A stretch of DNA of 64,000 bases from Branchiostoma lanceolatum. Taxonomy: Eukaryota; Chordata; Leptocardii; Amphioxiformes; Branchiostomatidae. The position numbers were made by a program, and so were the translations under genes. The stretch spans positions 12,146,910 to 12,210,909 of the forward strand of contig NC_089724.1 in the NCBI RefSeq assembly GCF_035083965.1. Direction: 5' to 3'. Numbering within the stretch: the first letter of the stretch is position 1; each line of letters starts with the position of its first letter. This document shows positions 7,274 to 14,538 of this stretch, one piece after another. The notes beneath the pieces are model-generated. The model was not told the DNA's origin, did no database searches, and worked only from the letters and a program-made list of their open reading frames with translations.

Positions 7274-10200
7274 ATGGCGGCCGAGCGGACGGTGTTGGTG
7301 TCGTCCATCCCTGCGGACCTGACAGGAGACAAGATAGAGATCCACTTCGGTAAGAAGAGTACCGGCGGAGGGGACGTCGAGAAGGTCGACTTCCAGGCCA
7401 AGGTCACGTTCTGTTCTGCTGAGGGTACGTCATCACACGTCATCTGATAACTAGTTATGACTAGATTTACAAAGTCAACATATCCATCTATGGTGCCATG
7501 CTGTGCTTCTTGTCTATCATAACAAACGGACTTTTACCCAAATTGGATAGGAAGCCAACTTGACAGGAACATTTGCACCACAGGATCTTGGTGATGTTTT
7601 TGTTTCCTGTTTGTCGTAGATAAAACTAACCATCATGGCCGTCTGATTGTCATTTCTTGTATCATGTATTTGCCAGTTGCTACACGTGTGGTGAACCGCT
7701 CGCACCGTCTGGGGAAACAGTCTGTCCCCGTGAGGGTGGAGCCGCTGGAGGGAACAGAGAGTGCCAGTCTGGAGGGACAGAAAGGCGGCAGACTCACCAA
7801 AAAGGTGCAGTGCCATCACTGCATTATGACTTTCAAGAGCAACCTGCGCTATATCTAGCGGGTCCCGTCTGAGTTTTTCTAACTAGAACATTTTAGTCTA
7901 AAGGTGTTATCGATATCTGAATGATGGTACCTGCACCATGGCTGCCATGTGGTTAGATGGCAAAAGGATTTCATATGTTCCAGGTTTGACGATTTCATCG
8001 GTTCAACAGTTAACAGTTAAACATAAGACAATACAACAAAACAGGGCGTGTAAACTAAATCAATTAAATCAAACCAATTATTTGTATCAATACGCCAGTA
8101 GCTATATATCTGAACAAATAGGTTGTACACAAAGTAGCACACCAAAAGATATCCGTGCGCTTTGTTGAACACTTTCATTTACAAAGTAATAGGGCAATGT
8201 AGGACTGTTCTATTGGAAAAGCGCTCCCGTGTTGACACTTTAAGCCTTCGCCTCAGATGTTCGAATTTCTCAGCAGGTTTTTGCCTCAGTATCCGCCGTG
8301 GTGACCCCGGCAGAGGTCCCTGACCTAGCCGAGTGTCCGGAGGAGATCATGACCGCCCTGTCCGCACAGACAGGCGTCACATGGGCCCATGAGCCGGGCG
8401 GGTACAGGCTGCAGGGCACCTGGGGACAGGTGGAGAACGCGAGGTGAGTACAGGCCACAGGCACCTGGGGACAGGGGGTTACAGGCTGCAGGGCACATGG
8501 GGACAGGTAGCTACAGGCCACAGGCACCTGGGGACAGGGGGTTACAGGCTGCAGGGCACATGGGGACAGGTAGCTACAGGCCACAGGGCACCTGGGGACA
8601 GGGGGTTACAGGCTGCAGGGCACATGGGGACAGGTATCTACAGGCCACAGGCACCTGGGGACAGGGGGTTACAGGCTGCAGGGCACATGGGGACAGGTAG
8701 CTACAGGCCACAGGGCACCTGGGGACAGGGGGTTACAGGCTGCAGGGCACATGGGGACAGGTAGCTACAGGCCACAGGGCACCTGGGGACAGGGGGTTAC
8801 AGGCTGCAGGGCACATGGGGACAGGTAGCTACAGGCCACAGGCACCTGGGGACAGGGGGTTACAGGCTGCAGGGCACCTGGGGACAGGTGGAGAACGCGA
8901 GGTGAGTACAGGCCACAGGCACCTGGGGACAGGGGGTTACAGGCTGCAGGGTACATGGGGACAGGTAGAAAACACAAGATGAGTACAGGCCACAGGCACT
9001 TGGGTACACGTGCTGGTGCTTGATATAAATGATAATGTATGTATAAATGAGAAGTCTATTGACGTGACTTTCAGACAGAATATCAGAATACCGTAAAACG
9101 CAGGAAATGCAATGTTATTTTTCACTAAATTTTCCTGCACAACGCACACCACATCTGCTACATTTTCACACAATTTAATAAACATTTAAGTTACAGTGTT
9201 TTAATCGTGATATATTTTTCTATCACCGACACCAGGTGCCTTCTTCAACGAAGGTATTGCCGAGACACCATGGATGAGGCAGTGGAGAGTGGGAGTAATG
9301 ATGCTGGAGAGGAGGGCAACAATACTGACCAAGTCCGCGCCAGTGCTGGAGATGTAGCGTCGACTGAAGTAAAGATGGCTTGGGGAGAGGTAGAGGAACA
9401 GCAGAACTCCACAACAGCGTCGAACACAAAGCGAGATCTAACGAGACATTTAGTAGATCAGACAGCTCGAACTGACCGCGACCATGCGGTGGGGATACGT
9501 TCCGAGGATCCTACCAGCACAGCCACAAAACAAAAAGGGTTGCCAGTAGATGCTACATCAGAGATTAGCGTGGAAGATGTAGAATCAGAGATAGTGGCGA
9601 CAGGAACACAGCAGTCGACTGGTGCAAAAATAGTCATTGAAGATCCTCTGACGTCTGATGAATCGTCAGACAGTGACCAGGGCGATGAACGGGAAAGAAG
9701 TTTGCCATCTCACCTCACAGCAGCAAAAGGAGAATCCTTGCCAGACACAAATGTCGAAGCATCGGTGGTTGTCGAAGAGAATGAAGCAATCAAAGAGTCA
9801 GAAAGCGAGCAGCCTACAGCTATACCAAAGGATGGTGTGCCTACAGCGAAGGAGCATCAACTGAATCGTGGGGAATCGTCTGAAGAGTCTATGCGACCCA
9901 TCACAAAATCGTCAGCCAAATACGTAACCGTGGACCCTGATATTATGGCATACATTGTTCACGTGCATAAGGACAAGCTGGCCACTATTCAAGACAAGTT
10001 CAAAGTCACGGTTAAGATGGAGAACAGTACGGATTGTATTTGTATCCAGCCGAGGGAGCAATGCTCCCACCATGACTTGGAAGAAGCTTATGAAACGTTC
10101 GTATCACTGTATCAAGACATGTTTAAGGACGTTCGTCCCCACAGGGCGAATCTCGCAGAGGTTCAAATCCCAATAGGAAGCATCAGAGTTGTTCTGGATA

Positions 10201-13200: not shown

Positions 13201-14538
13201 AAGCACACGTTCTGCAGCCCCTGCATTGACATGTGCATCAAGTCCAAACCGGAGTGCCCTGTCTGCAAAATGCCCGTCGGAAACAGGTAATATATGCTTG
13301 TATTATCTATTGTTCAGTTCCACCTGATAGAAGGCTAGGTTGCGACAGTTCAATCAAGACTTAGATCGTTTATCAGAATGATTTTTTGTGTTATAAAGAG
13401 GTTATTCGCGTTTTACAGTACCAGGAGAGGAAACCAGCCGGACGGCAGCATGACGCACAGAGTGGACCAGGGCGTCAGGTTGCCTGGGTACGAGAGGTAC
13501 GGCACCATCGTCATAGACTACCACATCCCCGGCGGCACACAGGGGGTACGTCACCACTTCTATATTCACTGCACTGATTACCTGTCAGGGTGATAAATGT
13601 TCATAAAACTAGTACTGAAATGCCATTAAACATTTGGAAACACAGCAAACAGAATGTGCTTATGACATGTTTAAATTTTATGATACAATCGGGTTGTCGA
13701 CAACGTGCACTTTATGTACAGGTTGCATTTCTTACACTCGATAAGTCAGAACTTTGACCTTGAATGTGAAACGCACTTACATTCAAACAAAGTTGAACAA
13801 TGTCTGCCCTGCAAATAGAAAGAACATCCTAACCCAGGACTACGCTTCAGTGGTGACATGCGCACTGCCTACCTACCTGACAGTCCCGAGGGAAGGGAGG
13901 TGCTTCGTCTACTTAGAAGGGCGTTCGACAGTCGGCTTGTCTTCACCATTGGTCAGTTGGTATCCCCCAACATTTGGCTGCAAATGATACACTAAGCATG
14001 ATTTTCACCGATTGTTTTTTTATTACAATATACGTCGTATTGTCCTTCGTCGTCTAAACATGTTGTGATTTTAAAGGTACGTCTGGGACGACAGGACAGC
14101 CCATTTTTTTTAAAGGTACGTCTGGGACGACAGGACAGCCCAACACCGTCGTGTGGAACGACATTCAGCACAAGACCAACATGCAGGGAGGACCCACCAA
14201 GTAAGCCTGCATCTCTTCAGTTTAGAGGATGGCTAGAAAGATATGACAGTAGATTAAGTGGCAGAGCAGGCGTTTTATGATGAAAAAAGATAGTGTGTTC
14301 ATTACCACTCCAGCTAACATTGGCCCCACGGCATCCGACATGAGCCCCCTGGTAATGATACCGTCACAGTTAACAGTTGCTACAACTTTGTGCATTGATT
14401 GGCATTGTGACCAAGTATACATAGCTTGTATTAAAGATTTACCAATATATATCTCTTTTGCCTTCCAGCTATGGTTACCCTGATCCCACTTATCTACAAC
14501 GAGTCAGAGTTGACCTGGCATCGAAGGGCATCAAGTAA
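7274..14538 (+). CDS. DTX3L: DTX3L-like macro-RING-DTC E3 ligase
   Basis: Eleven coding exons join in phase to 1,159 codons plus stop: 7274-7424, 7677-7804, 8277-8443, 9236-10895, 11133-11282, 12347-12524, 12656-13286, 13419-13545, 13819-13951, 14116-14200, 14469-14538. Domains: RRM/NID-like (1-93), KH-like (94-150), low-complexity acidic stretch, a second KH-like region (about 375-510), macro domain (about 683-890, with GDIS, GIARAI, TPGGRL and AIPAIGSG), C3HC4 RING (about 977-1015, CPVC...CKHTFC...CPVC) and Deltex C-terminal domain (1022-1159, GNQPDG, LPGYE, EHPNPG, WNDI, YGYPDP). Deltex proteins are ubiquitin E3 ligases whose DTC domain binds ADP-ribose; human DTX3L acts with the macro protein PARP9 in DNA-damage and interferon responses. 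Here the macro domain is in the same chain. Start: ATG within aagATGGCGGC. Ligase activity is inferred from the intact RING. Confidence 0.88.
8402..9005 (+). repeat. Minisatellite built from an exon-intron junction
   Basis: About nine units of 63-64 bp (two of 77 bp) start inside the last 42 bp of coding exon 3 and run into intron 3. Each unit is itself two related half-units (caggccacaggcacctgggg / caggctgcagggcacatgg). The exon's end, ggacaggtggagaacgcgag|gtgagt, reappears intact near 8881-8907, giving a second potential 5' splice site after 8901. A third, decayed copy near 8961-8985 has atgag in place of gtgag. Using the second donor would add 458 bases, which breaks the frame. Confidence 0.9.
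11493..11945. other. GC-rich block inside the macro-domain intron
   Basis: This part of the intron between 11282 and 12347 is markedly GC-rich and full of ggctggc, cggcatgg and tgggtcgg words, unlike the AT-rich flanks. It is open for 194 codons in one frame, but the translation is a low-complexity W/R/G mixture with no motif. The macro domain reads straight from exon 11133-11282 to exon 12347-12524 without it. It could be a decayed GC-rich tandem repeat; I assign no function. Confidence 0.5.
14069..14142 (+). repeat. 39-bp duplication of a splice acceptor
   Basis: The sequence ttttaaag|gtacgtctgggacg and the following bases to 14103 are repeated exactly 39 bp later (14108-14142). Each copy carries a potential 3' splice site and the first coding bases of exon 10. 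Using the upstream acceptor (exon from 14077) instead of 14116 keeps the frame and inserts 13 residues ([17 protein letters not shown]) into the DTC domain. Confidence 0.9.

Follow-up and report, generated by a model that had tools for sequence, protein, structure and literature searches.

Can one protein hold what vertebrates divide between a ubiquitin ligase and its ADP-ribose-reading partner? The question is raised by a gene on the plus strand, at positions 7274-14538, of a 64,000-nucleotide stretch of the Branchiostoma lanceolatum genome (contig NC_089724.1, positions 12,146,910 to 12,210,909; hereafter the window). An earlier note on this DNA described a DTX3L-like chain of 1,159 residues with RRM, KH, macro, RING and DTC modules. 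It proposed that the protein could bind ADP-ribose at two sites, macro and DTC, and transfer ubiquitin. In humans, RRM/KH, RING and DTC are found on DTX3L and the macrodomains are on PARP9, a split that the note had ascribed to vertebrates (PMC13224862, PMC10955461). Mono-ADP-ribose reading is given to human DTX3L by PARP9, in trans (PMC10955461). Our reading is that the lancelet gene probably encodes a DTX3L-type RING ubiquitin ligase with its own macrodomain-1-type ADP-ribose reader in cis, the ADP-ribose chemistry of the DTC domain being altered or lost.

The gene has 11 exons which, when joined, encode 1,159 residues and a stop codon (Table 1). The 3,480 coding bases contain no internal stop or frameshift and the splice sites are intact. 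All ten introns (131 to 1,064 bases) have GT-AG boundaries, and the phases agree at all ten joins. An in-frame stop at 7232 lies 5' of the start ATG. The joint between the KH region and the macro domain is inside open exon 4, and the macro-RING joint is inside open exon 7, which alone codes for the macro C-terminus and the whole RING. The alignment with PARP14 macrodomain 1 is one stretch, residues 687-862, spanning exons 4, 5, 6 and 7. Because both joints fall within single open exons, KH, macro and RING are linked at the DNA level, which at that level answers the objection that the macro exons and the RING-DTC exons might belong to separate genes. Phase and splice sites suggest the join of exons 1-3 to exon 4.

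The 1,159-residue protein was searched against Pfam, which returned 18 families up to an E-value of 10 (E-values are for the whole protein). Five matches exceed the curated cut-offs, and chance is therefore not a likely source of them. These are RRM_PARP14_3 (residues 5-69, 4.3e-9, with an overlapping NID match), a single KH_DTX3L region (380-502, 3.5e-8), Macro (712-825, 2.2e-22), RING zf-C3HC4 (978-1015, 9.1e-9) and DTC (1025-1158, 6.5e-58). All five modules named in the earlier note are thus recovered, and the DTC profile is covered over its full length (positions 1-133 of 133). Neither a PARP/ART family nor WWE was among the 18 families. Counted by hand, the eight C3HC4 ligand positions of the RING are present. 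Residues 160-375 form an acidic linker (net -27); the macro-to-RING stretch is 20% Gly with an acidic patch at its end. SUMO-interacting motifs were suspected by eye in the acidic linker; the pattern count was 0 (shuffle mean 0.096) and they were dropped. Matches of the KH region to PDB sequences were disregarded, the best listed (2e-6) being weak repeated stretches aligned to protein A constructs, alongside other weak hits.

In a sequence comparison with solved structures (best 60 of 250 matches, here and below), the single domain closest to the macro domain was PARP14 macrodomain 1 (3q6z, 1.3e-24). Its identity was 33.7% to PARP14 macrodomain 1, 31.0% to a bacterial domain, 27.6% to PARP9 macrodomain 1, 24.1% to PARP14 macrodomain 2 and 23.0% to PARP9 macrodomain 2. 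A tree of 6 sequences with long branches grouped it with macrodomain 1 of PARP14 and of PARP9, with 84/86 support. The motifs GDIS, SCNNES, GIARAI and GSG, read previously from the letters, are present in the translation. In hydrolytic macrodomains, according to PMC10221186, loop 1 lies between Asn/Ser and Gly, and loop 2 has a hydrophobic residue and next to it an aromatic one. Asn713, Gly721 and Ile813 are retained; by hand count, Gly721 would be residue G832 of PARP14 (PMC10499325). At the position of the loop-2 aromatic, Phe in PARP14 macrodomain 1, the lancelet protein has Ala814. Since the aromatic is replaced, the macro domain is predicted to read ADP-ribose, not to remove it, and hydrolysis is predicted to be absent. 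Some mammalian PARP14s have altered key residues and are reported to be without activity (PMC10221186). Binding of ADP-ribose by the macro domain is plausible.

The DTC domain was matched best by DTX3L (3pg6, 2.3e-47), followed by DTX2 (6.6e-43) and DTX1 (3.3e-37). The protein ends, like a Deltex protein, in a RING and then a DTC, but the Deltex His-Glu pair is absent. Gln1126 stands at the position of DTX2 His582 and DTX3L His707, and Asp1152 at that of Glu608 and Glu733. The assignment is gap-free; the His-Tyr-Glu spacing of 12 and 26 residues is reproduced by Gln1126-Tyr1138-Asp1152. Tyr1138 matches Tyr719 of DTX3L, not His594 of DTX2. Both His and Glu are kept in 3 of the 3 human Deltex chains aligned (DTX1, DTX2 and DTX3L; DTX3 and DTX4 were outside the comparison). 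The position of DTX2 Ser568, which is Gly1112 here, was dropped as evidence since DTX1 has Asn there and DTX3L has Arg.

DTX2 His582 and Glu608 are the pair proposed to activate the 3'-hydroxyl of ADP-ribose, and are described as strictly conserved among DTX proteins (PMC7615817). The proposed catalytic base is His582, or His707 of DTX3L, and this His also contacts ADP-ribose. Every tested substitution of DTX2 His582 or Glu608, even E608Q, impaired formation of ubiquitin-NAD+ (PMC7615817). ADP-ribose binding was lost when S568A, H582A and H594A were combined in DTX2 (PMC12402299). The DTX3L equivalents of the pair are H707 and E733 (PMC10810221). Ubiquitylation of single-stranded DNA by DTX3L was abolished by H707A, impaired by E733A and defective in Y719A (PMC11460948). 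We infer that the ADP-ribose chemistry of the lancelet DTC is altered or lost. The earlier proposal of a DTX3L/PARP9-like module in one chain therefore stands in part. The macro domain is in frame and nearest to the PARP14/PARP9 macrodomain-1 type. Conversely, ADP-ribose binding at both macro and DTC with Deltex-type transfer is not supported, in view of Gln1126 and Asp1152. That claim did not mention the changed DTC pair, and also the missing loop-2 aromatic, a residue listed for hydrolysis (PMC10221186).

Several known proteins can be compared with this one. Human DTX3L (BBAP) shares the order RRM, DTX3L-type KH region, RING and DTC, is the best match of the DTC domain, and has Tyr at the His594 position. 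Unlike human DTX3L, the lancelet chain is not macro-free: the N-terminal RRM and DTX3L-type KH region are followed by a macro domain, which sits between KH and RING. It also has a long acidic linker, and Gln and Asp in place of His707 and Glu733. Human DTX3L has five KH domains (PMC10810221), whereas Pfam detects one KH_DTX3L region here. As in PARP9, a macrodomain-1-type domain is coupled to a ligase. Here, however, the coupling is in cis, the macro domain is single and only 27.6% identical to its PARP9 counterpart, the loop-2 aromatic is lost, and the C-terminal PARP/ART domain of the macroPARPs (PARP9, PARP14 and PARP15) has no Pfam match. The front half of PARP14 is similar in its RRM_PARP14_3 match, KH region and subsequent macrodomain 1; RING-DTC then takes the place of macrodomains 2-3, WWE and ART. 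RING-DTC and a linchpin Lys are shared with DTX1, DTX2 and DTX4. Conversely, those proteins have tandem WWE domains (PMC7615817), for which there is no Pfam match here, and DTX1 and DTX2 keep the catalytic His-Glu.

How might such a protein work? For the RRM and KH units, binding of partners or of nucleic acid is proposed. The macro domain would dock on ADP-ribosylated targets, a task performed for vertebrate DTX3L by PARP9, in trans. The RING would recruit E2~ubiquitin and ubiquitylate acceptors near the ADP-ribosylated site, probably lysines, rather than ADP-ribose itself. The DTC retains the signature of its family but lacks the His-Glu pair, so that we expect little or no joining of ubiquitin to ADP-ribose or to the 3'-hydroxyls of nucleic acids. 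Carrying a macrodomain-1-type reader in cis, such a ligase would be able to do without PARP9. The gene model, the domains, their linkage and the residue changes are seen in the sequence itself, whereas ADP-ribose binding and reading, recruitment, the acceptors and the loss of both the DTC chemistry and macro hydrolysis are inferred.

Table 1. Exons of the lancelet gene, in window positions, and the parts of the protein that they encode.
Feature	Position	Strand	Residues and content
Exon 1	7274..7424	+	1-51: start codon, N-terminal part of RRM (PARP14 RRM3 type / NID match)
Exon 2	7677..7804	+	51-93: remainder of RRM (match 5-69)
Exon 3	8277..8443	+	94-149: possible first KH-like unit, suggested by sequence pattern; no Pfam match
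Exon 4	9236..10895	+	149-702: acidic linker, KH_DTX3L region (codons 9927-10295), second linker, first macro strands
Exon 5	11133..11282	+	703-752: macro loop 1, Asn713 (11163-11165), Ser720, Gly721 (11187-11189)
Exon 6	12347..12524	+	753-812: middle of macro domain
Exon 7	12656..13286	+	812-1022: macro loop 2 with Ala814 (12661-12663), macro C-terminus, Gly/Arg-containing linker, acidic patch, complete RING (codons 13150-13266), linchpin Lys1016 (13267-13269)
Exon 8	13419..13545	+	1022-1064: start of DTC
Exon 9	13819..13951	+	1065-1109: DTC
Exon 10	14116..14200	+	1109-1137: DTC; Gln1126 (14166-14168) at catalytic His position
Exon 11	14469..14538	+	1137-1159 and stop: DTC end; Tyr1138 (14470-14472), Asp1152 (14512-14514) at catalytic Glu position

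The gene also contains local repeats. Intron 3 carries a minisatellite (8449-8968) with a 64-bp unit similar in sequence to the 3' end of exon 3 and its splice donor. Residues 134-149 recur in tblastn searches at 8855-8902 (100%) and 8932-8979 (93.8%). The acceptor and start of exon 10 are part of a 39-bp direct duplication (14076-14142) with its upstream copy at 14076..14115 on the plus strand. Use of the upstream acceptor would add 13 in-frame residues within the DTC (1173 codons including the stop). Intron 5 is GC-rich (52%) and has a plus-strand open frame of 199 codons at 11389-11985. Two perfect 33-bp tandem copies lie just 3' of the gene, at 14840-14905.

Several observations weigh against a macro-equipped ligase with altered or lost DTC chemistry. 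The gene model was read from the genomic DNA of one genome, so that the apparent residue changes might come from base errors or from a decaying allele. The change from Glu to Asp is conservative and some function may persist. The linchpin residue is Lys1016, as in DTX1, DTX2 and DTX4, while DTX3L has Gln. In loop 1 of the macro domain, Ser720 replaces Gly and Ser710 replaces Asn, so that ADP-ribose binding is not certain. Entries for bacterial O-acetyl-ADP-ribose deacetylases (1.6e-19 and weaker) outscore PARP9 macrodomain 1 (2e-17) among the structure matches. The macro tree has six rows, came with a warning of long branches, and has no starred set that includes the macro domain of this gene. 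Single-sequence AlphaFold models were poor, with a predicted local distance difference test score of 40.9 for the KH region and 43.5 for the macro domain, and lend no support.

What else could explain the gene? If macro and DTC both bound ADP-ribose and the DTC still ubiquitylated it, the protein would be a reader and writer with two sites. The strong, full-length DTC match is in keeping with this, as is a DTC that is otherwise DTX3L-like with an Asp chemically near Glu. We consider it unlikely, since Gln1126 takes the place of the His that is proposed to be catalytic and that contacts the ligand, and no tested DTX2 substitution at either position, even E608Q, left ubiquitin-NAD+ formation unimpaired. 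The three altered functional positions, which are spread over two domains (Ala814, Gln1126 and Asp1152), might instead mark one DTX3L-like copy that is decaying or mis-sequenced, through lost constraint or base errors. The long intact frame, the splice sites and the RING ligand positions argue otherwise, and make this improbable. It is more improbable still, to the point of being remote, that two adjacent genes or a misassembly have been joined on paper. Such an artefact would draw on a model built from genomic DNA only, with a minisatellite in intron 3 and a GC-rich intron 5; it has to contend with joints inside single open exons and agreement of phase at every join.

The origin of the arrangement is a separate matter. 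The macro domain may have entered a DTX3L-like gene in this lineage only, which we regard as a serious possibility falling short of even chances. Recent reshaping is weakly favoured by the long linkers that flank the KH region and by the local duplications, but with 33.7% identity to its best match the macro domain does not look as if it had been inserted only very recently. Alternatively, DTX3L may have arisen before vertebrates by fusion of a PARP14-like RRM-KH-macrodomain 1 segment to a Deltex RING-DTC, its macro domain being lost in vertebrates afterwards, when reading passed to PARP9. The RRM-KH-macro order repeats the domain order of PARP14 as far as macrodomain 1 (PMC13224862), and the N-terminal part of DTX3L has been noted as resembling PARP9 and PARP14 (PMC10810221); an ancestral fusion of a PARP14 front to a Deltex back is therefore possible. 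It is also favoured by the nearness of the macro domain to macrodomain 1, and by a report of PARP9 from jawed vertebrates only, with none found in lamprey or non-vertebrates (PMC10221186). We nonetheless hold this history to be doubtful. It rests on one species, the 84/86 tree support is unstarred and from six sequences, and published depths of DTX3L disagree: a table in PMC11594159 reaches no deeper than sharks and rays, whereas PMC10955461 counts a D. melanogaster sequence, without the D2-like region, among its orthologs. Deltex is described as specific to holozoans (PMC2770060), and PMC13224862, drawing on earlier work, reports four clustered PARP14-like proteins in Branchiostoma floridae, also a lancelet. 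A fuller and rather unlikely account would have DTX3L born as such a fusion, with the macro domain taking over ADP-ribose reading in this lineage and the DTC losing its His-Glu chemistry, to leave an ADP-ribose-directed ligase without PARP9 and without ADP-ribosyl-ubiquitin.

Searches for relatives gave little. For the DTC there were 10 pattern hits in viral contigs and 72 in prokaryote genomes, and for a 404-residue stretch of exons 3-4 there were 14 in viral contigs; none was a confirmed relative. As to a neighbouring PARP9 or PARP14, tblastn with 6 macro sequences found none outside this gene below an E-value of 1.6 in the 64-kb window; the ART domain was not searched for. A preliminary model protein, with a misframed C-terminus, gave no other match below 2.7 in the window. 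A macro-RING-DTC protein was not described in the literature searched on the fusion, its evolution and the DTC residues, with subscription papers, supplements and protein databases outside the search; such proteins may well have been annotated automatically.

Elsewhere in the window, ten of the open reading frames, not all, were sent to Pfam. Amine oxidase exons are on the minus strand at 19547-22089 (Amino_oxidase, 6.3e-24 and, below the cut-off, 0.0027 for two frames). What looks by eye like a tandem amine oxidase copy occupies ~26900-29400 on the same strand; its one searched frame (28234-28566) had no match. Kinesin motor exons are on the minus strand at 42013-43607 (Kinesin, 1.2e-24, and 2.2e-6 just below the cut-off). 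A 307-codon open frame on the plus strand at 48804-49724 appears to be a reverse transcriptase fragment (RVT_1, 4.1e-5, below the cut-off).

PARP14, PARP9 and DTX3L act jointly in the antiviral response that interferon induces (PMC13224862). How ADP-ribose reading and ubiquitylation were linked in the absence of PARP9 could be revealed by a gene that unites reader and ligase in a single chain. If the DTC has lost its His-Glu pair, natural variation would separate two activities of the Deltex family, the ubiquitylation of protein and that of ADP-ribose.

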